Origin: Apiotrichum sp. Y4204
Taxonomy: Eukaryota; Basidiomycota; Tremellomycetes; Trichosporonales; Trichosporonaceae
Assembly: GCA_025531455.1 (NCBI GenBank)
Contig: JAMYHL010000037.1
Span: 351,607-415,606, forward strand
DNA length: 64,000 nt
Direction: 5' to 3'
The notes beneath the pieces were generated by a model. The model had not been told where the DNA came from. It saw only the letters and a list, made by a program, of their open reading frames with translations, and made no database searches. Shown piece by piece: positions 6,872 through 49,200 of the stretch; positions within the stretch are counted from its first letter, which is position 1, and each line of letters starts with the position of its first letter. Position numbers and translations under genes: made by a program.

Positions 6872-9147
6872 CTACTCACTCTCGCCATCGCTGTACTTCT
6901 CACCCTCTTCATCATGGTACTGCGCGGTGAACGAGCCCACCGCGTGCCCGACGGCGGCACCGAGGTCGAGGGCAGGCACGTCGAGGTTGATGAGGTTGAT
7001 GCCGTCCGAGCGCATGTCCTCGAACACGGCAGCGGGCGAGTCGGGTTGGGCGAGCATGCGTGGCGAGCGGTGCGCACGGAGCGCGAGCCGGTCGGAGCGG
7101 TGGGCGCGGCGCTCGGCGCGGAGGAACGGCGAGAAGGGCGATAGGGGGGAGAGAGGGGAGAGCGGGGACATTGTGATGTGTGGAGAGCGCGGGGAGGGGC
7201 GGATACGAGGGGAGGGGAGCGGGGCGGGGGCGTCCATGATCGGAGAGGGGAGCGCGAGGGGACCCATGTCCGCAATGTCCGCAAACTCGTCGTCGTCGCT
7301 GTCCTCCTCGCTCAGGAGGTTGCGCAGCCACTCGTCGAGCTCTTCGTAGACCTCGGCGGCCTCGCGGCCGAACCAAGGGAAAATGAGGAAATCGTGCACC
7401 GCGTCCGGGACGGTTATGATGTGGTCTGGGACGGCGGAGCCAGCTGGGCGCGAGAGCTTGACGCGGTGGAAGAGCTCGGTGATCTCGGGGCCAATGCGTT
7501 CCGCGTCGCCGTGCACGACGAACACGGGCGGGAAGTCTTCGAACGATGTGGGCCCTGTGCGTGTCGCGGGTATGAGGCGGCCGGCGGGGGAGACATAAAC
7601 ATTGTCGTGCATGGTACTCTCAGGCAGGCCGCGGAGTAGGAGGGATACGGCAAAGACTCCAAAGGTGTCCTCGATTGTGTCCACACCGCGGTTGTGCGCC
7701 AGCCCTTCAGGCTCCCACTGCTGTGTGAAGCCTAGATCGCACCAGGGAGAAAAAGTGAGAACTGCACGCGGGCCCTGCAGGCCCAAAACACGCCCCTCGT
7801 CGCGAAGCCACCGAGTGAGCGCGAGAGCGAGGTGGCCGCCAGCCGAGTCGCCGCCGACCAGCAGGTCGCGCTCGTCGACTCCCTCTGATATAAGATATGC
7901 GTACGCGGTGATTGCATCTAGGAGGGGAAGTGGCCAGGGCGCAGCTCCTGCGAGGCGGTAATCAACAGACAAGACATGGTCGACAGGCGTGTGGTTGACC
8001 ATGCTCTTCGCAATGTTGCTCGTCATGTCGTGCTCTGCAGCTGATCCGACAACGTAGCCGCCGCCATGGAAGAGGAGGAGCACGGGCTCCCCTTGCTTCC
8101 GGGCGGGACGCGACGCCGAGTGGTGCTCTTTGCGTCCGCAGTACCAAAACCCTTGGACCGTGGTGAATCCGTACTCTTGTCTCTCATGGGCAGGGGGATT
8201 CCACTTGCCCCACGGACCGGAACGCGAGGGGCGGTAGATAAACTGTGGGTGCCACTTGCCTCGTGTTGAGTAGAGGTGTCGCAACATTTCCGCCGGATGG
8301 CCGCGCAGCCAGTCTGGTGGTGCAGGTGGCATCATGACGGGGTGGGAGTGTGTCAATGACTCTGGTGCCTGCGTAATGCGTGAGTATTCAGCAAACGTCG
8401 CACATAGGAATGAGGGTGTGGAGTGCCTTGTGTAGGCGCATCACAGGAGCTTCAGCAAGGCTGGAAATTGTGGATACCCCTAGCGACATGTCGCAGGCTG
8501 CGACTGTTCACGGACCGCTCGCTGTCGGCCTCGTACATAGCCTCTGGACTCGAGACCGTCAGACGGAACATCGGTCCCCGCGAGTATCCGTACGACCGAG
8601 GGGTCGGGTTCATTCAGTCCGCTTCACAAATTTGAGGCTAACTCTGCCTCTCTGCGAGCAGAGTCACGCCTCCCGGCGGCCGGAGGTACTCACCACACGT
8701 TTAGCTGAATTGCTACCAAGGTAGTCTATCTCGCAGAAGGCCACCAGACCACAGAGGCGCCGACTCCAGCCGACTCGAACACATTTCTTGACGGTCCATG
8801 ACTTGCGGGGCCGGTTCGACTGTGGGACGTAGTAGACCAACCAGAAGGGGACGAGGAATATAAGGGTGGATAGGAGGAAGTAGGCCAGATATATTTGCCG
8901 CAGGACCGGCTGGCGGTGAAGGGTGTTATTGCGCGGCGCAAATTGCATCTGTCAGGTCAGCACGGGCGGTGAGAGCTGGCCGCGGTGTCACTCGCTTCGG
9001 CGGCAGTGGACATTCGCCGTCGAGAATCAGCAAGGCAACACTGATACCCACACAGCGGGCTCGGATCGCCTCCGAGGTCATCTCTTCCGGAACATCACCG
9101 GACGGGGAGGCGTGCTGGCGGCGACGCGTGAGGGAGCCATCGGGCAT
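6872..9147 (-). CDS. Membrane-anchored alpha/beta hydrolase (HSL-like esterase/lipase)
   Basis: The large 3' exon (6872-8368) carries a full HSL-family catalytic core: oxyanion motif HGGGY, nucleophile elbow GGDSAGG (Ser312 in my model), acid Asp425 in HGDAERIG and His462 in PDAVHDF. That exon has no usable in-frame ATG upstream of the core. Two upstream exons fit in phase 0: 8694-8948, containing a hydrophobic anchor (IYLAYFLLSTLIFLVPFWLV) followed by basic residues, and 8992-9147 with an ATG in a good context (CACAATGCC). Together they give 635 aa. The third intron would be 325 nt, long for this region, so a missed exon is possible. The C-terminal about 110 residues are disordered with SP repeats (SPLSPLSPLSPFSP). 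The substrate is unknown; such fungal enzymes act on small esters, sterol esters or xenobiotics. Confidence 0.75.
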
Positions 9148-16517: not shown

Positions 16518-17064
16518 TCCCCTAGACGTGTGCTAGTAGTGTGCTAGTCGCAGTGTGACCGAGAATGTAATACCCTAGCCGTGGCGTGCGCGGAGAGGTG
16601 AGGATCGTGTATGATTGACTGCAGCGGTGTGATGAGACGTCGAGGATCCCCGACAAGATCCCGGACATGAAGATTCCGGCTTTGTGGAGCCAGCTCTTCA
16701 CTCTCAACCATCACCACGACGTCTTCAATAATGCGCTGACTGAAACAACCGTCCATGACCACACGACTGACAACACCACTGATGGCAGCGTCACGATTCC
16801 CATTGTTGACAGACACACATCCCACATCTCTCGCACCCAGCACACACTTCATGACCCATAACGCAATACATTGTTCCCATGATGGCGAGGACGGCGACGT
16901 GGGACGACAAGGACAGGAGTATATATCACGATGCCTTGTTCCCTCCATCCTCCTCCATCTCCTTCCATCTCCCCATCCTCACCGTCTTTACCGTCCTCAC
17001 CGTCCTCACCATCCTCACCGTCCTCACCTTCTTAACCGTTGATCCCCCAAGCTCCACGTCTGCA
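16518..17064. other. Spacer with TATA element and tandem repeat upstream of cysteine-cluster gene A
   Basis: 547 bp. TATATA at 16920-16925 lies 140 bp before the next ATG. At 16975-17028 there are about six imperfect copies of a 9-mer close to CTCACCGTC. No ORF of interest. Confidence 0.45.
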
Positions 17065-18021
17065 ATGTCCGCAATCATCGGCATGGCGCACTACGCGTTT
17101 GCCCCGACGCGCCCGCCGCCCATGCGTCCGATGCCGCGCACGCCCTCACCGGTACCGCGCGCGTCGTCCGACTCAATCGTGTCGGTGGCGCCGGCGCGTA
17201 CGCCGGCGGGGTGTGCGGGGAGTAGGGATGGGAGAAGGAGTTTTGATGGTGGGTACACTGAAAAACGAGAGTGAACTTTCTGTCTCGAACCGATGGTATC
17301 GGGCGAGAGGGGGACTGCGATTCTCGCCCTGTTCACACTTCCTCTTGCCTTGTCTCATTCTCTCTCCTCTGACAATCTGACACCAGGCACCTGCGTCTAT
17401 CTCCGCGACGGGACGGGCTATCCAATGTGTCTGTACTGCCGCGTTCTGCGCCGGCGCGAGTTTGTGTACGTAAACAAGTAGAACTGGACTGACGGCAGGA
17501 CTGAGGCGGAGGCGGAAGCGAAAGCGAAAGCAGAAGCCAGGGCGGCGGCCGCAGCCGAGGCGGAAGCACTGGCTGCGATGACTGCGCCACAGGACCAGTA
17601 CGAGTCTGAAGAGGACGACGAGGAAACTCAGCTGCCGCAGCTGCCGTCACGCTCCCGCTTTCACGGCGTAGTCAAGGCTTTGCTCCGCCTCGCGCGCCCC
17701 GAGGCCACGATCTACGAGGAGCCCGAGACGCTCGGCGAACGGCTGCGTGAGGTGTACCGTCCGCGGCGCTCGAGCTCGGTGGGGACCAGGAGCTTGAGCA
17801 CGATGAGTTCGATGAGCTCGATGGCCTCGAGCAGCCACATGAGCTCGACGACTTCCATCTTAGCTAGCAGCCGGAGGACTAGCACAATGAGCCTCGACAC
17901 AGACACACCCGCGCCAAGCCGGACACGTCGGGTCAGCTTCCAGGAGCCGCTTCAGCGGGGGCGGCGCTGGCGGCGGACGGCGTCAGAGGGTGAGACGCGG
18001 AACAATGAGTGCAATGAGTGA
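17065..18021 (+). CDS. Cysteine-motif family protein A (261 aa, uncharacterised)
   Basis: Not recognised as a known family. Three exons: 17065-17248, 17387-17465, 17499-18021. Cysteines C50, C64, C76 and C79 form C-x13-C-x11-C-x2-C (core: TCVYLRDGTGYPMCLYCRV). The first intron is phase 1 and splits the codon two positions before C64, exactly as in the genes at 18223, 20146 and 21422. The N-terminus is proline-rich and probably disordered. After the motif come a basic stretch (RVLRRREF), a Glu/Ala/Lys helix-like run (about 89-113), and a long Ser/Arg-rich tail ending with RTRRVSFQEPLQRGRRWRR. It is the longest family member; the others stop soon after the motif. The cysteine spacing suggests a small metal-binding ribbon, which is inference. 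No signal peptide or membrane segment is seen. Confidence 0.6.
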
Positions 18022-18159
18022 GGGGGAAGAGGGGGATGCGGGATGGTATCAGCATGAATCATTTGACACAAAAGATGCATTGATATACACAGGACTTGTG
18101 TGATTCGCGCCGCTGAGAGCGTGTACTGATCCCAAGTATTTTTCTCATGACGGCGAGGA

Positions 18160-18165
18160 TATAAG
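18160..18165 (+). promoter_or_regulatory. TATA-like element upstream of cysteine-cluster gene B
   Basis: TATAAG 58 bp before the ATG at 18223, at a plausible distance for a TATA box driving a short transcript. This is positional evidence only. Confidence 0.35.
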
Positions 18166-18222
18166 TCACATCTAGCGCCCGCTCTCCTTGCCACCCAACC
18201 CCATCCCACTCTTACTCCCCAA

Positions 18223-18422
18223 ATGGACGAAATCCAGCTCTGTGTGGGAAACTACGCCTTTGAGCGCAACCGCGGCCGTGAGTCCCCCGAGAGCATACAG
18301 TACTGACGACAGAGCCGTGCAAGCCGTACCGCGCGACTGACGGGGCGAGGTGCGCGTTCTGCGGGCGCGGTGTGCCCCCCGCGAATATACATTGGGCAAT
18401 CTGGACGACCGCGCCCGTTTAA
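18223..18422 (+). CDS. Cysteine-motif family mini-protein B (54 aa)
   Basis: Two exons, 18223-18277 and 18313-18422, joined at a phase-1 codon (Q19), giving 54 aa. Cysteines C7, C21, C32 and C35 give C-x13-C-x10-C-x2-C with core PCKPYRATDGARCAFCGRGV. The 35-nt intron has a consensus GTGAGT donor and a CTGACGACAG branch/acceptor, and without splicing the frame ends at once after the donor, which supports splicing. The tail is hydrophobic/aromatic (HWAIWTTAPV). There is no signal peptide. It is one of the two minimal members and is essentially just the motif. Too short for most gene callers, so it could be missing from annotations. Function unknown; metal binding is inferred from the cysteine spacing. 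Confidence 0.6.
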
Positions 18423-18690
18423 GCTGCTTGAGAGCGTGTAGAATGTAGAACGAACTGTGGTGTTTGTGTATGTACAGTGCAGTGGTGAACAATGGGTTTC
18501 TGGCGGGTGTCTTTGATTATTGTGGAGTGGTTCAGAACGAGTGGAGTGAGTGTGGCGCGTACAGTACAAACGATACTCAATCTTTGCCACATACATACAA
18601 ACGGCTCGCCATGTACAGTGATTATGAAGCTTCAGACCTATCTACAGCATGCGAATGACAGTCACTCATGACTCTCAGTCTCCTCGCAGC

Positions 18691-19403
18691 CTACACGCCG
18701 TGCTTCAGCCAGATTTTGAAGCGCGTCCATCGGCTTATCCCCTTCTGCTCTGTGGCTGTACACGCCGCACAGATTCCGCACGGCGCTAACGTATGCGCCG
18801 CGGGGCGCACCCCGCCGCCAGTCACTGTCGTCAGAACGTTCTTTGTCGCCGCCACTTACCGCACTGGCAGTAGAACTGGGTATTCCCACCGAAGCGGGGA
18901 CATTTCCGGTCGTGGCGCTCATACGTCTTCCACTTGGCCTCGGCGTCCGCCCGGTCTGGGGGTTTCGGCGGTGCCTCGGTGGGCGGGAGGCGGGGAAAGT
19001 CGTCCCAGTGCACGGTACGGTCGGCGGCCTTCTGCGTCTCGGAGGGGGGTATGCCGGGCTCGAGGGAGGGCAGGGGGCGGTGCGCGAGTTGTGAGAGGTA
19101 TGGGTATTCTGGATCGGGAAGGCGGATGGGGAGGCCTGCGTGCGTCGGGCAGCGGCCGCACGTACACAGTGCGGGGTCCGGGTGACACGGCTTCATAGTA
19201 GGTACGCGAGCTGAGTGACTCCACGGTGTGCCGTTGGTGTAGTGCTTTGCCATGTGTTCGTCTGAGAAGCCTCCAAGCGCGGCAGAGAGGGTGCGCGAGG
19301 GGGTCGGGCTGTTGAGGCCGGCTAGCGCGAGGCCCTGCTGCCGTTCCGAGAGGGGCGGGGAGTGCTCGCTGAACCCCGAGGCGTTGTACCCATGGCCTGC
19401 CAT
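18691..19403 (-). CDS. Divergent Cys-rich protein C within the cysteine-motif cluster
   Basis: Exon 1 is 18860-19403 (ATG at 19403, context CTCCATGG). Unspliced, the frame ends at 18831 (190 aa) with CPRFGGNTQFYCQCGK close to the C-terminus. A perfect GTAAGT donor lies inside that end; splicing to 18824 or to 18785 stays in frame and adds a CGICAAC motif and the tail RWTRFKIWLKHGV, stopping at 18691 (225 or 212 aa). With the 18785 acceptor the phase-1 codon again lies two positions before a cysteine (A|P-C), as in the clear family members. A second cluster, CTCGRC, lies mid-protein. The N-terminal half is Pro/Ser-rich and probably disordered. Family membership and the 3' structure are uncertain. 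Confidence 0.45.
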
Positions 19404-20145
19404 GGAGTGGGGAATTAGAAGATGAGGAGGTAGTGAAGGACGTGGAGCTGGGGGGACAAGGGATCGGGCGTGAGATAGTGTCTGTTTGCGCGGATGGGCG
19501 CGGTCACTGCCGATCAACGCGTCATTTGCCACCAGCGAGAACACAGGTGGCACGCGCACAGATGTTCTGAGCCATGAGCGACCAAGACACCGGAAGTGTT
19601 GGAATTTTGGTACGACATGGATCCATGCGGGTCGGTTCTGGACTTCTTCCAAGTTCCGGATGTCGTGGGGACATGGTGGCCGCGGACCTGGCATTGCACT
19701 GAGTGACCCCCTGCCAGCCCTGCCCGCCCACTCTTGGCGCCACATCCGTCGCGTCAAATCCATTCCTGGTGGCACAACCTTGTACTCAGAACATTGTGGT
19801 TCCAAGTCCACGCTGCACACGCGTACAGTACACGCGCACACGCGCTTACACTATATAATAACGTCCTGTCTCGTGTGGATATCTGCATATAGCTCATCTC
19901 CGTATACAGACCCGTCTGCGCCAAAGTTTTACACCGTACGACCAGGGACTCTTGAGTCCGTGCGGAAGCCACAGCCGGGTGTGGGGGCAGATTCTGCTTT
20001 TGGGTGGGGGAATGTGAGGAAAAGCCCCCTCAGGCGGGCCGGAGAGAGTTTGTACGAATGCATTATGGCACAATATGTCTTGGATGGTAGAGTACAGCCG
20101 CCCGCCAGCGGGCGGTTTTTGTCGTCGCTTGCTTGCCTGCTCGCT
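19404..20145. other. Spacer between cluster genes C and D
   Basis: 742 bp. It holds an alternating CA/CG run (about 19812-19848) followed by TATATAA at 19853-19859. No convincing ORF. Confidence 0.4.
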
Positions 20146-20354
20146 CTAACCGTCTAGCCCCTTGGCGCCGTCGTAGATGAGCCGACGGCAATACGCGCAG
20201 TACATCTTGTCGCCCATGATGCGGGGCGCGCAGTAGTCTAGCGAGTTAGTACCGCAACAGGGAACTGGGAGTGTGGCCATGACTCACTGCCAATGTTATT
20301 TGCGTGCGCGTCCCCGAAACACCAGATGTCTGTGCCTTTTGCGCAGTTGGGCAT
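20146..20354 (-). CDS. Cysteine-motif family mini-protein D (52 aa)
   Basis: Two exons, 20288-20354 and 20146-20237, joined in phase 1 (codon N23), giving 52 aa. Cysteines C12, C25, C36 and C39 give C-x12-C-x10-C-x2-C, with one extra Cys at position 4; the core is YCAPRIMGDKMYCAYCRR. The intron (20238-20287) has a GTGAGT donor and a textbook TACTAAC branch point before CGCTAG. The ATG is in a good context (CACAATGCC). Like gene B, it consists of little more than the motif, with a short tail (LIYDGAKGLDG). Donor context and intron position match gene E (GGC-A before GTGAGT in both). No homology to a named family is recognised; function unknown. Confidence 0.6.
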
Positions 20355-21421
20355 TGTGGGTTGTGAGGCGGAAGACGCTGTGGGTTGGCGTTGAAAGAGC
20401 AGTCGGCTGGCGCTCGATAGACGACGACTAGGTTTTGTTGAGGTTGAAGCTGCAGCACAGAATGAACGAGAGAATATTGTCAAGAAAGGAAGACTGACCA
20501 GCTGGGACCGTAAATACTGGACGCTGCTGAACGAGGGTGCTCCCCCATCAGTGCTGCCTCGAGAGAACCTCAAGCCTCTGGACCAATACGAGAGACCGCC
20601 TGACATACACCAGTAGCAAGCGGTCCTCGTAGAACAAAACACGTTGAACACACAGCTTTCGAATTGTCAGACGCTCGCACCATCGATCGCGGATGACCAG
20701 ACATGATATTACGACGCGACTTGTGTGTGAGGTCATTGAAACGCGTCGCAGTCCGATCATGTCGGATCTTAGGTGTTCCAGCTGGTAGAGGATCACTGGT
20801 GCCGCTGGTCACATCCCAAGCGCGACAGGTCCAGAATGCGGGCAGTGCTGCGCGGCGAGACTGGGTTGTCACGACCGTTAACCTAACGGTTCCAGACTCT
20901 GATTGTGACTCAGGCCTTGGATGTATTCTGGTACGAGCTTCCCCTGGCTTGACCAGAGTGACGCAGACCCAAACGTGACCGTACAGAGCTGTGGGGATGG
21001 GCGTTGGGTTATTCTCGTTGAGACCTTCGCCACGATCGCCACTCTCACGCCACGACCCCACATGCTGCACGCGTTGGACAAAGTGCTGTGACATGTGTGG
21101 TCGTGCCACACCTGACGGCGCCACACCGGCCCCACCCCAGCCATCCGGAACTTGGGACAGTGGGGTACCAGGGATGTGTTCCAATGCCCGTTATGAATAC
21201 ATGTCTACAAAAACAGATGTGCTATTGATGGCCAGAGTGAGCTTTATGGACCCTGGTGATGCGTGTGTGTGGTGTGGTGTGTGGTGTGCTGAGCTCGCGT
21301 TGGAGCGTGGAGAGTTCGTGACAATATGCAGGTGTCGTGTCGTGCTGGTACAGTGAAGGTGGAGTGGAAAGATCGGCGACATGTGTGGCAGAGATTGTTG
21401 AAGGGATGCCTTGCTCGGTCT
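20355..21421. other. Spacer between cluster genes D and E
   Basis: 1,067 bp without a recognisable gene. A GTGTGGT-type low-complexity patch lies near 21262-21292. Confidence 0.4.
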
Positions 21422-22030
21422 CTACTTCAAGTCGCGACCGCAGTAGAAGCAACGCAGCTCGGATCCAAAGTACTCCATGGCACAGAGGTCTGAGCGAGTG
21501 AGTCCTGAACGGAGGTATGACTGCAGATGGCCATCGCACTATCTCAAGCGGCGGTACTCACTGCCGTTGTTCTTCTGGTCGCCCTTCCGCCCATTACAGA
21601 GTCCAATGGTACTGGGCGGACCGGTGATAGTAGTATGCGGGGGTGGGGGAAAGATCTCGCCTTGGACAGCGTCCTCGTCAATGGCCGGAACCCCTGCTGG
21701 GCTGGGGCCGTCATCCTCGCGGTAGAAGTACGACTCGAACGAGCCATGGCGTTCGGTCCGGCCGGCGAAATACGGTTGTGGAGGCGTTTCCAGCGCCTTG
21801 GAGCTAATATGACACCAGCCCAGGGCACCGGAGATGGAATGGGAGCGGCCGGGGGTCGGCGACAGCGGCGTGGCCGGCAGCGAGGAGAAGGGCGACAGAT
21901 GGGAAGAGGCCGTCGAGCTCGGGGACGGAGGGGCGGTGGACGCGGACATGATGAAGTCCGTACAACAGTATGTGGGTGGTGTTTGCTTGCTCTTCGCTGG
22001 TGGCAAGGGCGTTGGGATTTCAGCTGCCAT
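21422..22030 (-). CDS. Cysteine-motif family protein E (178 aa)
   Basis: Two exons, 21562-22030 and 21422-21489, joined in phase 1 at codon N157. C145, C159, C170 and C173 give C-x13-C-x10-C-x2-C (core LCAMEYFGSELRCFYCGRD), and the protein ends five residues later. The upstream 140 residues are Ser/Pro/Thr-rich (for example SSLPATPLSPTPG) and probably disordered, with a DFIMSAST internal methionine as an alternative start. The intron (72 nt) begins GTGAGT directly after GGC-A, as in gene D. Its C-terminus shows where the domain ends: right after C-x2-C-G-R. There is no signal peptide or membrane segment. Function unknown. Confidence 0.6.
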
Positions 22031-25000
22031 TCGACACAGCTTTATTATGTGGTGATGGTGGTTTGTCTTTGTCGCTTCTGCCGGGTGTCGTGGGTTCTTT
22101 AAAGTAGAACAGAGATGGAGGAAATATTCGCAATGTTCAAGTGGAGAGGAATGGATCTGGGCTCTGTGGAACACTGGCCTGAGACGGGGATATGTAGAGT
22201 TTATGGGCTGCTGCCAGAGGACCGGAGGCTCTTAAAGTCACCTTCCGAATACACCATTGCACGCGTATGCTGTATGCAGTGCGAGTGCGCTATGCGCAGC
22301 CAGGAATGCAGTGCTCGTGTGCGGCCACCGCATGACATGCAGATATGTCATGTCCAGGTGCAGGAGAACCTGCAGGACAAACATTCCACTCCGGCCCAGT
22401 GGCCAGTCGACATCCCCAAACGCCACCCTGTCTCACACCCTGTCGGACCGCCCCGGTTCGTCAACTGCCCAGCAGCGCCAGACAGCGGCAAGCCCGCGGC
22501 AAGATGTCTGTAATGCACCGAAAAGCTGGCGTGCTTGCAGCGTGCCGCGTGAGCTCCCACCCCACTCCGCCGGAGAGGCTTGTCGGGCATCAACGCCATG
22601 ACATCGACGTGGGTGGCGCTCAAATCCTAAATTACCCCGAGAGTTGACCCCGACATAATCAGGGACTTGTACATTCTGAGGATTCTGGGAAGCGGCCGCA
22701 GTGCAGACCAGAAGTGCATCTGCATCGTTCTCTCTCCTTTGGCAGTTTGCTTACTCGCTGACCGAATGGTTCGGTAAATGCACTGTCCGACAAGGCACGA
22801 GACGAGTGGGGCGAGGCATCACAAACATCGAGAATGGCAGGTATGATGGCGAGCTGTGGAGCTCCCTCCTGTGTTTGCGCGATGACAGAGAATAGCTGTG
22901 GTGCTCCAAATACCTTGCAGAAACAACGTAACATCTGGAGGTTGGAATCACAGCCGCGGCTCTCCCGATAACGAGCACCGGCAAGCTAGCTCCAGCTAGC
23001 TGCCCACATGGGCAGACTAGCGACTAGGGCCAAAAGTATCGGAATCTCAGGGCGTGCTGGCCGCGGACGCGCTCCCGGTTGGAGCGTCCGCGTCCCATGT
23101 TTCTGCATTTGTGCATTTGTGTCGGCCTTCTCGGTCATCCATTCATCACATCGTGACATCGTTCGGACCCCGGACCGGTCGCGCCTGTCGCGCTGTCGCG
23201 CCCGGTCGTGACTGTCACGTTGCTAAATACAAATCGCCCCAACCCACTGCAACTGCAGGGAACTCACAAGCGTTTGGCCTGCTCGCACCTGCGGCGACCT
23301 GGGCAAGCGCGCAGGTGGCGTCCGGCGGTGGTGGCGCGTGCTGAACCAGCACCTGGCGCTTAATGGGAGACGAAGGGGCATCGAAGGGCGAGCAATTGGC
23401 CAGTACTGGCCATTCGTCTGGCCCACCGAGACCAAAGTTGAACGTCCTGTCCTGCCGCCTCGGTCTCGGTCCCTACCGTCTTTGGCAACCGCCTCTCCAC
23501 TCCTCCTCCCTAGGTGTGACGTACCGAACAGCATTCCGGTGCTTGTCCTCTGTCTGCAAGAGCTCCAGCTCTCAGGATCTCAGGGTTCGGCGTCTGCGAC
23601 CGGGGTCCAGGACACGGGAAACTTAACGCCATCAGGCAGGCGCCTATTCCGTCCACTGTCGATGCCTCATGTCTACGCTGTTCGTCGCTGTACTGCGACC
23701 TCGGCGCTGCGGCGCCGTTAGAGTCATTGGTCTACGGCAGCAACGTTATTAAAACACCGATAACGGCGCCCCAGCTAGGGATAAAGGTCCCGATATGGCA
23801 GGAATGGTCCAGGCACCCTGCATGACGCGGTTCAGGACGCTGTATCCTTGATCCTTGCTCAATCAGCACACAGAGTATATCGAGTTGCGCTACTATTTTA
23901 ATCTCTCAAATCTGTCATCGTCGTCCTCCGAGCTCTCTCTCTCCTCCACTTTGTTCGGAGCATTCTTGGGTGGCTGCGGCGTACCTTCCAAGTCCGACCC
24001 GAAAGCTCCCTCTCCCTGCGTTCCTCAATGAGATAACTTTTGACAAAGCATATACTGTACACTCCTCGCCGTACTACCGCTCTTCTCTCCCTTGTCGCCT
24101 TCTTACATCCGTCCTCGATGCGGTCTGTCCCGAACAGCGGAATGGGCCGATTCAAAGTCCGGGGAGTCCGGAGCTTGAAATGTGCGGACGGCGCCGCCAC
24201 ACCTTGACTAACTGGAGCTGAGCACCGGCGTGCCAGCGCAGCCGTACCCGGGTCTGCCCAACCTCCGTCCTCTGTCCTCTGGGCCGCATTCACATAATCT
24301 CCTGCCACTCCGGCGTCACCGGGCCCGGGTAAGCGCGCGATAAGCGCTAACAAGCCATCATGTAGTTGCAGGAAACGCATATCGCGACGTCTTGCGACAC
24401 ATACTTTGGGCCGCACGGCCCTGGCAGCGTAAGTGTCAGCCCCCCCACAAGCAGCATTTGGAGCAACAAGCAAGTTGGCCAAGACGTCGAGGAATGCGCC
24501 GGAGTGCAAGGCAATTCAACGCAGCACGTGTAACACGGTCTGAGAGACGCCACGGCACGGCGGCCCCCCCAAACCCTCTGCGCCCATCACTGTACAACGG
24601 CGCTCGCCGACGACTCGTGAATTCGCGACGGCTGCTGAGGCACTTCTCGGACTCCGAGTTTGCGAATCTCGCCTCATCGGCGGCCGATTAAGTATCTGCT
24701 GAGCATTCAAAGGTGTGGCGTTTCCAGGAGCCCGGCCATGGGGCTCCGAGGTTCCTGGGAAGCTGCACTCACTGCCAAGATTGTATCCCTGCCTGTTCCC
24801 GCGACACGTTGGGTAGTTCATCACTATCGAGTTCGCTGGGGATGGGTTGCTGCTCGCGACTGAAAGGTGGGTTGAGAACGTGTCAAATGGTGGAGGGGAG
24901 TAGGAAAGTGCTGATGATAGTCAACGTCAAGCTCTCCCCTACACCGACTTTATATAAGTCTCCCCACCATCTTGTCCACATTACTTGCTGCCAAAGGTAT

Positions 25001-27376
25001 CGTCGCCCCCGGAAATCCGGCGCGAGAACATGAGAACACCAACCGCAGAGCAATTCGCACGCGACAAGATGTTCACATGTACTCGAAACAGGACGCACCA
25101 CGCTCGCAATCGGGAGCTAATGATTGGTATATCCTCTGCACGGCCTCCACGCACATCTCTGCGTGGCCAGCGATCCCGCAAGTCTTCCTACTGAAGCCCC
25201 CTCGATCCCTTTGATCTGATAGCGGCTTGCACTCTACATTTCTCACCGTGAACATTCGCAGCAAGTTTTGAGGCTTTGGCCATTACCTGCCACGACCTCT
25301 GGGTCCCGGGTCGGAGAACCTCCTCAAGAGGCTCAAACACCAAACGACGGAGAGTTTTGTGTCCCATGGCTGACTTCTCTCTGTGGGAACCTCGACGCCA
25401 CCAGATGCAACCGACGCATCTGCGTTGGGGCACCGCGGGGCCGCCGCCAAACGGTCACACAAACGATCATGTGCTCCCCACCAGGATCCAGACCACCAGC
25501 CAGGCCACAGCCATGCTAGCCGCGCCAGCCACGCTGTCATGGCCAGCCATGCGAGGAGGTTTCACTCGAATACTGAAGGGCACCCAAGATCCGGTCCTTG
25601 ACGTCGCGTGACTCCTCATCCCCTTGAGATCTCACGATCATATATAATGACGGAATTGCTGCATCGCGAGGTCACAAGAACTTCTGAGAATCGCTGATAC
25701 ATTGCCTGCCCTGCATTACTTTGCCACCCAGCGTCTCCCACGCCCTACTCGACCTGGTTGCCCGTAAGCTCACGCACACGACCACTTCACTCACGGGAAC
25801 TAATGTGCATGCGCTAACGACATCTCATGCTACTGATAATATACAGAATGATGGGGGGATAACTTGCGTGTGGTGGTGCGGTGGGTCAGTCTGCGCAGTT
25901 CGGCCGCTCATCCGTTGGCCGTAGGAGGGGGCACATGCACCTGGGGGGAAAGATACACCTGCGTGCAGAAAGTACAGGCGCTGACACCGGCAGCGACACC
26001 GAGGAGAACGCAGGGTTCTGGGAGTTAGCTTGGCCGAACGGGGAACGCACTACCAGAGTTGGCGCCCGTGCGGATACTGCCCGCGCAGACGGAGCGCGGC
26101 GGAGGCATGGCGTTGAAGGAGTACGCGGTGGTGAAGGGCTTGGTGACGGCGGGAAGTGAAGACCAGTGGAGATGCCAAATGATGAGAGGAGGACAACGGA
26201 GAAGTTAGAGGAGAGCTGTGTGAGTTGGCCATGGAGCACTGTATTAGTACTGCACTGCTCAGACTCGCGCGACTCACCTTCCACCCCATGACGATGGCTG
26301 TTGGGGTCTGACACAGTGCCAAGGCGTCGCGGAAAAGCACCCCGATGCAAGGCTGGCGTTATCTTTTCGGTCTGAGGTGGCGGCCATATCCGTTGGTGCA
26401 ACCACTCACACGACATGTCATGAACTGCAAGCTGATGAGTTCCCACTCGTTTCATGGGGGCGGAAGACAAGATCTATGGATCTCTGCACCACAGGGTGTG
26501 TCCTTATCCTCTTCGTCTGGGCAGTGGCGGCCATGTCCGCTGGTGAAACCTCTCACGCGACCTACAATGAACTTACTGTAGAAGCTGATGAACCTCCCAT
26601 TCGGATTGTGGGGGCGCAAGACTGTGCCCGCACACAGCGTCGGTCCCCAACCAAACGCTTGTGCTCAGGACCCCAGTGCTTAGACCTCCTCCCGTATCCG
26701 AATTTCTTCCGGGGCAACGCGAGCTGTGCTTCTGTTCCTTGTTACAATATACTGTACTGTAGAAGGCTCTGCTCCTGGCTTTCAAGGTGGTTACTAACAT
26801 GGCACGGGCCAATGCCATGTGGTGACCCCACCATTTGTGCAAGAGCCATGGCGTTCCAGTCATTCCTTATTAATTTCCGCAGGCCTGTGCTTGGAGCGAC
26901 AAGCGCTGGAATTGACCTTCTTTTGGGTTTCCCTAAAAAATACAAAAACTATCTGTTATTGAAGTATCTCCGCGACTGTCGATCGCGTGTGTTGTTGTTG
27001 ACATCTTCTCGGACGGCGTTCCTTCCTTCCCTCACTGGCTCACAAACCTCACCAATGCATGAACAAATTTTTGGGATAAATTGTCGTTGATTGCGCGTTC
27101 AAAAATGCGATGAAGTTAAGAGCATCAAGGCATGCATCATGGAGCAACTACAATGATGGGGCCAAGGGAAGGTCGGAGGGGTTGGATGGGGAGGGGGATA
27201 ACAACAACAAGCGTATCGTACGAAACTATCTACAACGCCATTGACATGAATTAAATCGATACGCAGCATTTCGGAACTTGCAGGCTGAGGGACATCGAGC
27301 CACTATGTGGATGAGCTTTGCACAAACAAAACGTAACACTAGACGATGGTACTCACGGCTTATTGAAGGGCCGCCT
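22031..27376. other. Gene-poor region (5.3 kb)
   Basis: I find no gene I can support. Frames are short, lack family resemblance and are not joined by credible introns. TATA-like sequences occur at about 24950 (TTTATATAAG) and 25640 (ATATATAATG) without a convincing downstream ORF. A diverged direct repeat sits at 26377-26622 (listed separately). It could hold decayed mobile-element or paralogue remnants, or non-coding RNA genes that cannot be recognised by eye. Confidence 0.4.
26377..26622. repeat. Diverged direct repeat, two units
   Basis: Unit 1 (26377-26468) and unit 2 (26524-26622) start with GTGGCGGCCAT and end with GGGGGCG-AAGAC. In between they share (C/A)-rich CTCAC-CGAC, ATGAACT and AGCTGATGA blocks with small indels. 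Unit starts are 147 bp apart. Similarity is clear to the eye but far from exact, so the duplication is old. No coding potential is conserved between the units. Confidence 0.55.
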
Positions 27377-33169: not shown

Positions 33170-35594
33170 CTAGTGCTCGCACAGATTGAAAGAGGAACTG
33201 TAAAGAACCTCGGAGGTTGACTGGTCGAGACCTTTGCGCTCCTCCATGAGCTCCTCGCGGAGCTTCTTGGCCTCGTTGAGCGAATAAGGGCAGGCAAGGT
33301 CGTCATAGATCATTTGGGCGAGCTCGGGCGGCAGCTTGCTCTCGACATTTGTAAGACTGCCCCAGTGCTTCTGCTGTGGCGGTACGTTGGCCGTGGAGAT
33401 GACAGGCGCCTTGGGGTCGACAAGGAACAGGGCGAGAATCTTGCGATGGCCAGGCTTCGTCTTGTCTGCGAGCTCGAACGGCTGCACTTGGTGCTGGTAC
33501 ACGTTCGGGAATGCGAGAAGACGTCCCTCGCGAGTGTCGACATCGCCAAGCAGAACAAGAGCATCCTCCTTCCCCTCGTTGCCGTACAGGTGGTCAAACG
33601 TGGCGTGGTCTCCCTGCTCGTACTCGAACGTCATGGCAAACTGCTCCGCATCGCCAACGGTGCGGAAAGCGAGTCGGCTCGGAGTCACGTTATCATTGTC
33701 GTAGTAGTATAGGGCGGTAGCACAGATGTGTTCGTTTAACTGGCCTTCAATGTGCCACGAGCCACCGGGGTACGACGGCTTCTCGGGCGTGAGCTCGATG
33801 TTGGCAAGCTTGACGATCACTTGGATTCTCGACGTGTCCGTATAGGGCGTGAACCAGGGGCCGCCAGTCCTGTAGTTCTCAAACCCAAGGAAAGTGTAGG
33901 GAATTGGTTCGGGCATGACAACCTCGTGAGTCTTCGCAAACCATGCGTCGTCTGCATCTTCGCGCTTCTCCCACGCCTCATCCTCGTCGTCCTCTCCGTC
34001 CTCCTCTATTTGCTCGTCGCTTGGCCGGCCCGGGCGGTTTTCTTTGTGGCAACACTCCCACTCGGAGTTTTCGCAAATGTTGGGGACGCCACAAATCCTC
34101 TCCGCGCGAAGAGCCTGAATACGGGAACGAGACAGGCGCTCCCCGGGCTTCTGGTACCGCGGCTCGCTCCTAGGGTCCTCCAGCATGGCGCTCCACGACA
34201 TTGTCTGTTCGTAGACGGCAGACCACAGCGGAAGGGAGGCATCGATGACCTTCTCGATGGCGGCGTATAGATCCTTGTTCTCGGCAGGAGGCAGGTTGTT
34301 GATATAGCTCAGAATCTTGGCAGACGAGCTCACGTCCACCTCAGCAGGGAGCCACTGGAACTTTGTCGAGTAGAGATGCCTGGTGTTGTATCCCTTCGAA
34401 GGCTTGTAATCGGGAACGGGGATCGTTTCGCCACTAGCGTATGCGGTCATGCAAGTGTCAAGTGTGAGGTCACGGTCGGCGAGGATTCGAGTTTTGCCAT
34501 ACACCAGGGGCCAGAGGGAGGGGTGAACGAGGTCGAGGACCTGCCATCGCGTGAGCTCAAGCTCCACCGTGAGAATAGCTCACCTGCTCATTGCTTCCCG
34601 GGTGCCAGTCTTTCTCATCCGCAGGGACATCCTCCAGAGGCTTAACAGCCTTGCGGAGCGCCTCCTTGACGTCCCCAGTCACGGCAGTGTCGCTCTTGAA
34701 CACGCCCGTTGCGCCATCCAGGGTTCCGACAATTTCATGCGCCTTGTACAGCTCCGCCTTGTCGCGCAGCTCCTTGATGCAGAAGTCGAACATGGCGTCG
34801 GAGAAACCGTGGGAGAGCGGCAGCTTGGGCGCTTTCTCGTTCTTGAGCTTGTTCTGGTACGCTTCTGAGAGCTCTTTGGCAATTTCACGCTCCATGTCGG
34901 AGTCGAGCCCATAGTCGTCGCTGTCGACGTTGCTCCCGCGACCCGAAAAGAGGCCATCGACAAGGCTGTCGGGGCCGTCATCGTCATCGTCATCCTCCTC
35001 CTCGTCGTCGTCGTCTTCATCATCCTCATCGTTGTCGTTCTCGTCTTCCTCAGGTCCCTCGGCGGCGCTTCCTGTATCGGCGTTGACATTCGCATCCTTC
35101 TCGACATCGTTGGCATCGCTGTCGCCGGTGTTCTCCGTTGCTGCGGTCTCCTCGCCCGCGACAGCCGGAGACTTGGCCCCCGCTTCCGGGGCATCTGCAG
35201 CAGCCTCCTCAGCATCCGATTCAGCCTCGGAGCCGTCATCGTCCTGGTCCTGGTCCTGGTCCTGGTCGTTGTCATTCTCGTAGTCCTTGTATCTGTTGTC
35301 CCATTCCTCATCGATCTCCTTTTGAGACGCAGACTGCAGGGCAACGAGCTCGGCAATCTCCTTCTTCCACTTGCCCACAATCGTCTCGTCGTACACTTTC
35401 TCCCACCACCGCGGCTTCTCAGTTACGTGGTTGATGAACCAGAGCATGCCGCGCTCGCGGACCGTCGGTGTGTTCGATAGCCAGTTCTGCACGGCCGAGG
35501 GGAAGAAGCCTGCGGGGGTGTGCGGCTTAACGCCGACGGGCGCGCGCGTGTACACCTCGAGAGGGAGGCCGAAGCCAGGTCGTTCGAGCGGCAT
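33170..35594 (-). CDS. DUF4246 family protein (fungal, putative Fe(II)/2-oxoglutarate oxygenase fold)
   Basis: Two exons, 34584-35594 and 33170-34540, joined by a 43-nt phase-0 intron, 793 aa. Signature DUF4246 blocks are WFINHVTEKPRWWEKVYDE near the N-terminus, GEDGED-linked middle parts, VIVKLANIELTPEKPSYPGG, SWHIEGQLNEHICATALYYY and LLAFPNVYQHQVQPFEL followed by GHRKILALFLVDP. H600-x-E602, H687 and R703 could be the iron and 2-oxoglutarate ligands of a double-stranded beta-helix, but that assignment is inference. About residues 105-210 form an extremely acidic Asp/Glu run (DQDQDQDQDDD and EDDDDDDG) inserted between conserved blocks, longer than I would expect for the family. Function and substrate are unknown. 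Confidence 0.85.
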
Positions 35595-37210
35595 CGCGGA
35601 GGTGCAAGATGAGTGGGCAGTGGAGGGATGAAAGAGAGGAGGAGCGCTGGGGGTCGAGAGTACGGATTATAAGCAATCAGGACAATGGTCTGTGCGCGAT
35701 AGTCCAGTCACGGCCAGTCAGCTCTATACTGGGCTGTCCCGGCGCCGCGGGAACAGGGCTTGGCACCGGCAGAAGCGCAAGACGTTTGCACTCTGGAGAT
35801 AGGGAGGAATTGGGCGCAAAAGGGAGTGGGGGGGCGCACGCCAATTGAGACGCGTTTCAAAAAGGCACAACATTGCACCGGGACAGAGAGGCACAGGATC
35901 ACCGGCTTCGCGTAAAGGGCCCAGGGCCCCAGGGCGGCCCTTTTCCATTTGTTGTTCCATACTGCCGATCCCCACAGTTTCATTACCCGGATTTCAAATG
36001 TGGTAAGCTTAACTACAGTAACCACAGGGCTGGATCCAACCTTGGTACACAGAAACCAGATGTCGTGTTGTTACTGCTGCACCAGAGTTCTCATGTACGG
36101 CAGCTGCAAACCACCGGCTCTACTTGGGAGCTACCCCGGGCGCTAGCACCTTTCCATCGGGCCTGATCGTGATGAAGCCGGCTTACTGAGCGCCCTTGCC
36201 CCTCTGCACCTGCGGTAAGCAGGGACCAGAGCCAACAACCTCCACCTTCGCGTTCACGCGCATCCAGTCCATTGGCCTGTCGAGGAGGGACAGAAGAAGA
36301 CGCATTCGGTGGTCTGTTCCGATGACGTTCCACATTCCTGGCTTTAAATACTGTCGCTCTGGTCATTAATGAAAAGCGCGCTCGCCGAGGCCATGCGGCG
36401 TCTTCCTGACAAAGGGCGTAAGCTGGATAAGCATTTCGCGGGACTGTAGTTTGATGGGGCAAATCGTGCGCCAACCCCGTGTAGTTCTTGCTGATCATTG
36501 TATCAGGCAGCGTCTTAAGGCAGCCAGGTGCCAGCCACAGATGCACAGACTGCTGCCCAAACGTCAGGTGATCAGGTGATGAGCCACCCGGCAGATCCAG
36601 TTACAATCCATTGATCCATTGTCCATTGATCCATTGATCCATTGATGATCTGTGCAGCTGTGCAGGATTGTCGTTTCCCCACTGGTTGATCGACAGGGGA
36701 CTAGGGGACGTGATCTACAGAAACTCCTCCGATCCCCCGGCTCCATCCCCACCGGCTCCACTTCTCTCTATTCACCACTCAGCGCGTCACGACGGTGGAT
36801 AACATGCGGCCCGCACCGCATCGCAACGAGCATCTTGGGGATCATAGAGGTCGGCGTCGGGACGCCGTCGACGACAGCTGTAGGCGAGCTCTCACAAAGG
36901 CGATACCAGAACGCTGGCGATGGAGGACGAGGCGGCATGCAATGCAGGAGGGGAGCAACGTTATCATTGTTTTGAACCTGTATCACCTGTCAGTTAAAAT
37001 GCATAAAACTGATCTATCTGACAGGGGTCCGTGGATAAAATGCATTTATCTGACAAGAGTCCGGGACCCAGGTCCGGGGACGCAAGACTTGGACTTGAGA
37101 CCCAGGACCTAGTCGGCCAAAAGAGTTTCATTAGGAACTGCATTACAAACTTGATTAGGAAACAGTGTCGGCTCACTCCTGGCGGACAAGCATTTCAAAA
37201 GGATATCCAA
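35595..37210. other. Gene-poor spacer before tRNA-Glu (1.6 kb)
   Basis: No gene supported. It contains the ATTGATCC tandem repeat (36606-36650, listed separately). Confidence 0.45.
36606..36650. repeat. Short tandem repeat, ATTGATCC-type
   Basis: About five copies of an 8-9 nt unit (ATTGATCC, one variant ATTGTCC) in 45 bp. Simple sequence; no gene association is seen. Confidence 0.7.
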
Positions 37211-48642: not shown

Positions 48643-49200
48643 GATTGATAGAGTTGTGCTAGAGATGGACTTGTATGCCGTGTTCTATAGCTCCTGGGAT
48701 CCGCAGCTGAGAACGGTCGAACGATACATTAACATTGGGTTGACATCTAAGCGGACGCGTTCTGGTGACAGATTATTAGCCATGAATGTGGCCTGTTCAG
48801 TGGACATGATAATAATGGAAGGAGCTGCCATGAGTGTACTGCCCATTGACACCTGCTACCAGTCGCAGCTGCAACTAGGAGTTGCTTCTCCATACCTCTT
48901 GCACCTCCAGCACTCGCTGCGATGAACACTTAACGTCATCAAAAGATCTTGCATGCGTCCGGTCCCTTGCGAGCGACCAGGCGCGAGCTCATCGTGAGGG
49001 TTTATTCGTCTAAAATGCTATATTCGACATGTGTACAACATGCTTTCCCAACCAGTCCCGCTCTCCACGGCATCGTATCCTTTGCGGCGAGGCCGCGCCA
49101 GTTGTCGTTGGGCCATGATATGTCCTGTAGGCAGATGCGAGGTGGAGCACAGCTCTACCTGTCTCTGCACGTCCTGTGGATCTCCAGCAGTCACAACTGC
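48643..49200. other. Convergent 3' spacer, FMP32-like / MOB1
   Basis: 558 bp. No gene recognised; a 90-codon plus-strand frame here is an in-frame continuation past the FMP32 stop without independent support. Confidence 0.5.

Follow-up and report, generated by a model that had tools for sequence, protein, structure and literature searches.

The classical zinc ribbon is built on two CxxC (or CxxxC) knuckles. Here we describe a window of 64,000 nucleotides (the whole stretch of DNA analyzed; positions 351607-415606 of contig C114 in the 48.9 Mb, 182-contig assembly of the fungus Apiotrichum sp. Y4204) in which five neighboring genes, A, B, C, D and F, encode related small four-cysteine proteins. 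Their cores have a CxxC at the C-terminal end only and a first pair spaced C-x12/13-C, and we rejected the classical ribbon for them on this ground. The closest described systems provide analogies, not membership. The one-domain C(P)XCG zinc finger micro-proteins of Haloferax volcanii, as described in PMC6562870 and PMC11241148, are similar in being shorter than 70 amino acids (aa), in having cysteine-based predicted zinc sites, and in being numerous per genome; they differ in that they are archaeal, that no shared sequence has been shown, and that our proteins combine one CxxC with C-x12/13-C. According to PMC6562870, 12 of 16 deletion mutants of the Haloferax single-domain proteins had a phenotype, and the proteins matter under special growth conditions. 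MicroProteins, in the account of PMC6003976, are small single-domain proteins related to larger ones whose complexes they interfere with; here, three small single-domain products (B, C and F; 54, 52 and 55 aa) stand beside two larger relatives (A and D, of 261 and 178 aa) that share the core, a likeness of sequence and layout. The N-terminal [4Fe-4S] motif of NUBP1/Nbp35, CX13CX2CX5C (PMC8007109), begins with the same C-x13-C pair; all five of our cores read C-x12/13-C-x10/11-C-x2-C, with no P-loop NTPase attached, and we set this assignment aside as well.

The sequence-only reading had listed four genes, A to D, with a common cysteine spacing. Spliced by hand through GT-AG introns, all four gave clean gene models, and their start codons (17065, 18223, 20354 and 22030), lengths and cysteine numbering proved correct once the introns were removed; the list was incomplete, however, because gene F, 4 kb beyond the other four, is a fifth member, found by an exon-aware scan that used the phase-1 intron rule given below. 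The spacing is near-identical rather than the same in the four genes originally named (x13-x10-x2 in B and D, x13-x11-x2 in A, and x12-x10-x2 in C). The five genes are as follows.

17065..18021, plus strand: gene A, 261 aa; exons 17065-17248, 17387-17465 and 17499-18021 (stop included); core at residues 50-79, C50-C64-C76-C79 (C-x13-C-x11-C-x2-C).
18223..18422, plus strand: gene B, 54 aa, hardly extending beyond the core; exons 18223-18277 and 18313-18422; C7-C21-C32-C35 (C-x13-C-x10-C-x2-C).
20149..20354, minus strand: gene C, 52 aa, again little more than the core; exons 20354-20288 and 20237-20149, then the stop codon; C12-C25-C36-C39 (C-x12-C-x10-C-x2-C).
21422..22030, minus strand: gene D, 178 aa; exons 22030-21562 and 21489-21422; C145-C159-C170-C173 (C-x13-C-x10-C-x2-C), with the core at residues 145-173 after a Pro/Ser-rich N-terminal extension.
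25908..26108, minus strand: gene F, 55 aa, also hardly beyond the core; exons 26108-26051 and 26017-25908, separated by a 33-nucleotide intron with a CTAAC branch-like site; first cysteine C8 (C-x13-C-x11-C-x2-C).

Judged by their sequences, these genes are one old paralogous family, as the sequence-only reading had held for its four, because they share the position of a phase-1 intron (in the second codon before the second cysteine in all five genes, which is independent support) and because their cores score above all permutations. The consensus core of about 30 residues is C-x-G-x(7-8)-[GD]-x-x-C-x(10-11)-C-x-[YF]-C, and the four cysteines and one glycine are invariant in all rows of the alignment. 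With cysteines excluded, the BLOSUM62 sum of the aligned cores was 51, as compared with a mean of -176 (standard deviation 35) when residues were shuffled between the cysteines, and none of 20,000 shuffles scored as high (gaps were placed on the real data only); when gaps were re-optimized for real and shuffled cores alike, the corresponding values were 60 and -123 (standard deviation 36), and none of 5,000 shuffles scored as high. The duplications are old, given that pairwise core identities reach just 7-12 of 31-33 positions (cysteines included), and they precede the split between C114 and a second contig, C115, because each gene has its own counterpart there.

With spacing limits taken from the five genes themselves, we scanned three intron phases and seven offsets for the spliced motif and obtained five matches each from the window and from C115, every one in phase 1 and at offset 1. 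No match arose when the window was resampled 200 times under a first-order Markov model, and the 30 kb of C114 upstream of the window had none either. Requiring a match in both contigs (again over three phases and seven offsets) left the same five places only, with B, D and F each drawing one alternative donor or acceptor pairing in addition. A looser spliced scan also picked up position 49131 of the window (C115 counterpart, 186128) and, in C115 only, positions 172398 and 151623; these places depart from the family in spacing or residues, and we discarded them because they are lost under the stricter limits of the scan above. Without splicing, six pattern matches were found, none of which alone makes a family member.

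C115 aligns with the window over two long stretches (91.1 and 91.4% identity), such that nearly the whole window is duplicated, and in view of this second copy at about 91% identity the assembly is that of either a hybrid or a diploid with very high heterozygosity. Hybrid genomes are on record for Trichosporonales in PMC7026411, PMC12820176 and PMC6642101, and the 48.9 Mb of this assembly exceed the range of 16.4-42.4 Mb that PMC7026411 gives for 33 Trichosporonaceae strains. The C115 counterparts of all five genes are intact and in the same order, and 20 of 20 core cysteines are kept between the contigs. Over positions 16524-26600, the five genes and exon 1 of a neighboring gene, E (2358 coding sites), have 109 mismatches and no indels, as compared with 569 mismatches and 61 indels at 7636 other sites, a count that includes introns and the unsettled second exon of E. 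The ratio of nonsynonymous to synonymous change (dN/dS) between contigs is 0.19 for gene A (Fisher p = 1.2e-6 for excess synonymous change), 0.15 for B (p = 0.03), 0.10 for D (p = 7.5e-9) and 0 for F (no nonsynonymous and three synonymous changes; p = 0.021), and the three mini-genes B, C and F pooled give p = 0.0008. The five genes thus look real and maintained by selection, and the conservation of their frames bears out the sequence-only reading; its description of the family as fast-evolving fits the distance among paralogs and fails for each gene by itself, which is conserved between contigs (dN/dS 0-0.29, as compared with 0.03 for the exon of a V/A-type ATPase subunit).

That the proteins belong to no recognized family, as had also been proposed, agrees with searches of Pfam, NCBIfam, the Protein Data Bank (PDB) and protein databases, none of which gave a convincing match. 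Pfam returned nothing for A, B, D, E or F and, for gene C, just DUF2252 at E = 0.046, below the family cut-off; NCBIfam produced one chance-level match (E = 0.094) in one of nine rows. Two protein-database searches aimed at other fungi yielded no convincing relative: none of 189 candidates for gene D and none (of one) for the profile A3 reached E <= 10. Of 7997 proteins scored in a control search with the neighboring DUF4246 frame, 3835 reached E <= 1e-20, and the best 120 of these 3835 include named Cutaneotrichosporon and Vanrija proteins, which places some Trichosporonales in the database; within the same 120, the best-scoring protein shares 62% identity with the DUF4246 frame across 56% of that frame. 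The empty search is weak evidence of absence from other fungi, because it needs shared 5-residue words and because gene callers may omit genes this short. In the genome itself, searches with A-F and with the concatenated A-D cores found the locus, its C115 counterpart and otherwise ten weak matches (E of at least 0.03), nine of which contained no spliced motif when scanned and the tenth of which (on contig C147) gave no locus. No query with a single gene recovered another member (A-D found neither each other nor F), the four-core query missed F, and in these genome protein searches F was recovered only by its own query; genome-wide absence of further members is therefore not established, since protein searches are blind to paralogs so diverged, and scans that allow for splicing took in about 194 kb of the 48.9 Mb assembly. 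Among the open-licence papers listed in our literature searches, none describes the family.

The explanation that we favor, with moderate confidence, is that the locus encodes five small and probably intracellular proteins of one old, local family, built on a single four-cysteine domain that putatively binds metal. The four cysteines would coordinate one metal ion, with zinc the likeliest; a predicted beta-hairpin from exon 2 would join the second cysteine and the CxxC, and the first cysteine, contributed by exon 1, would close the metal site. An AlphaFold2 model of the exon-2 fragment of B, computed with four paralogous rows, has strands at residues 4-7 and 10-13 that form a beta-hairpin running into C13-x2-C16, with a predicted local distance difference test (pLDDT) score of about 77 over residues 1-10 and about 83 over residues 11-20 (the first cysteine, in exon 1, lies outside this model). 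With such a hairpin the second cysteine would come close to the CxxC, an arrangement common among metal knuckles. A weak profile likeness to the metal knuckles of the DIAP1 BIR domain and of RNA polymerase subunit P also speaks for the explanation. The small zinc ribbon suggested by the sequence-only reading is accordingly plausible for the C-terminal half, and the classical form is not, the first half having no CxxC. Crude hydropathy reveals no clear signal peptide: the first 12 residues of A are mildly hydrophobic (1.27), the hydrophobic stretch of F (2.21, residues 23-34) is internal, between the second and third cysteines, and the peaks of B-E are 0.24-0.94. For want of a clear signal peptide, reduced thiols with a metal fit better than disulfides, and taken with the CxxC hairpin this makes an intracellular metal site, zinc first, our best guess. 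More tentatively, the domain may be a protein-docking module; A and D, in which it is joined to long extensions, could then be the working regulators, and the near-bare B, C and F might compete with or buffer A and D, as microProteins do.

Several points weigh against this explanation. The exon-2 model has a mean pLDDT of 69 and a predicted template modeling score of 0.36, and Foldseek returned seven matches for it at E <= 10 and none at E <= 0.001. What speaks for a metal is the cysteine pattern by itself; AlphaFold2, as PMC11241148 states, does not reveal whether a group of four cysteines is arranged for metal, and by the same account zinc was held by only 9 of 14 purified Haloferax micro-proteins with predicted zinc fingers. 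The competitor role that the bare forms perhaps play comes from analogy. Gene C, taken alone, shows no significant constraint (dN/dS 0.29, p = 0.23), and codon usage gives no sign of high expression (the reference being one gene). PDB sequence searches produced weak matches only, all at E > 0.05 and mostly on the CxxC side: the DIAP1 BIR domain, HP0958, RNA polymerase subunit P/Rpo12 and ribosomal S26. In a BIR domain the CxxC comes first, followed by His and Cys. Here the CxxC is the last pair, and Pfam gave no BIR match for A-F or for spliced E; we rejected BIR membership, the likeness being a short hairpin-type stretch, GD-x-x-x-C-x-[FY]-C, where the profile weakly matches the DIAP1 zinc knuckle (1sdz, 3sip; E 0.05-0.4). 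The archaeal subunit P/Rpo12 zinc ribbon (4qiw, 36ro), a 49-aa protein, is matched at a CxxC knuckle, but at E = 0.42 or worse, and it has two such knuckles.

Other roles for the four cysteines can be set against the favored explanation. They might hold an iron-sulfur cluster or act as a redox switch, after the manner of the N-terminal motif of NUBP1/Nbp35; the C-x13-C spacing occurs in four of the five members, and the NUBP1 motif binds [4Fe-4S] (PMC8007109). The remainder of the motif is C-x10/11-C-x2-C here and C-x2-C-x5-C in NUBP1, and we consider this reading unlikely. Two further features are more zinc-like: the last cysteine directly follows a Tyr or Phe, and the model predicts a beta-hairpin running into the CxxC. 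Metal buffering, in which small cytosolic thiol proteins would store or chelate zinc or copper in the manner of metallothioneins, fits the tiny size, the several copies at one locus and the four invariant cysteines, yet it appears distinctly unlikely for proteins that have just four or five cysteines in 52-55 aa, whose strict spacing and invariant glycine point to a folded site rather than a flexible chelator, and of which A and D are mostly extension and not cysteine-rich.

Small cysteine-rich proteins in a fungus also call to mind secreted, disulfide-bonded effectors or antimicrobials, and the hydrophobic stretch of F and the mildly hydrophobic start of A could be read that way; we nevertheless judge secretion highly improbable, because hydropathy shows no clear N-terminal signal-like segment (the F stretch being internal, that of A weak, and B-E lower still) and because an aromatic residue within the CxxC is typical of metal knuckles. 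Small size, four cysteines and hydropathy that reveals no clear signal peptide would also suit CX9C-type proteins of the mitochondrial intermembrane space, but the two CX9C pairs that define these are missing from all five cores, which leaves that assignment with very little credence. Finally, short open frames are easily found by chance, and the unspliced pattern C-x9-12-C-x2-C does occur 29 times in the six frames of the window, as compared with an average of 16.8 across 30 resampled windows (range 9-24). The probability that the frames are not genes at all is nonetheless close to nil, considering that the spliced motif occurs five times in each contig and in no resampled window, and that purifying selection is detected in four of the five genes singly and in the three mini-genes pooled.

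A bolder version of the favored explanation, which we regard as possible but doubtful, is that the domain founds a new eukaryotic family of metal-binding mini-domains, and that the cluster is a self-contained regulatory locus in which nearly bare microproteins tune or block extended regulators, the set being maintained in parallel by the two subgenomes of a hybrid yeast. Gene prediction easily overlooks intron-containing genes for proteins of about 50 aa, and gene F was visible only by splice-aware reading. The two homoeologous contigs provide a built-in test for selection, and the nearly bare and extended versions, side by side, are a ready system in which to test the origin of microproteins. 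If the domain binds metal, the site would be compact and its ligand spacing unusual.

The extension of gene A is C-terminal, long and Ser/Arg-rich (disorder judged by eye). Its second intron (17466-17498, plus strand; 33 nucleotides) is one reading of several, and when it is retained the frame ends at an in-frame stop a few codons in, in both contigs (...EFVYVNK here and ...DFVYVNK in C115); gene A may for that reason give a short core-only isoform in addition to the long protein. Residues 231-235 of the extension, RRVSF, are kept in C115 and match the RVxF pattern of PP1 docking, beside a PKA-type site; RVxF, present in A and E, also appears in 10% and 9% of shuffled copies, respectively, and we did not use it. 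The true start of gene D may be the second in-frame ATG (M28) instead. Upstream of D, positions 22031-22600 are 94.9% identical between the contigs, as compared with 86.7-91.0% in five other intergenic stretches, an unusual degree of conservation that suggests a long 5' leader, an exon that was missed, or regulatory DNA. Promoter motifs shared among the cluster genes amount to short matches only, and TATA-like words within 300 bases upstream occur in A and B and in none of C-F.

One further gene lies inside the cluster.

18691..19403, minus strand: gene E, about 225 aa; exon 1 19403-18860, a 35-nucleotide intron, and exon 2 at about 18824-18691 (acceptor uncertain; three readings tried).

Gene E is conserved (exon 1 against C115, dN/dS 0.11, Fisher p = 5.5e-9) and cysteine-rich, with KPCHPDPALCTCGRCP, FYCQC and PCGICAAC; the spliced form carries KC-x11-C-x-C and PCGICAAC, and matches no Pfam family either unspliced or spliced. 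As a sixth family member we rejected it, because it has no C-x12/13-C-x10/11-C-x2-C and was missed by both spliced scans, and we retain it as a neighbor. An 18-base near-match to gene A in its 5' flank (E = 0.003) hints at a very distant relation to the family; with one possible acceptor, the intron of E is likewise in phase 1 and precedes a cysteine by two codons.

The window has short introns and 54-64% GC, and its gene content is fungal. Among 20 open frames scanned, the neighbors of the cluster include genes for a V/A-type ATPase subunit (which we take to be subunit B), a DUF4246 protein, a polysaccharide deacetylase, L28e and an Xrn-type protein. The DUF4246 gene (33170-35666, minus strand), from a large family in fungi, comprises two adjoining open frames, probably with an intron between them.

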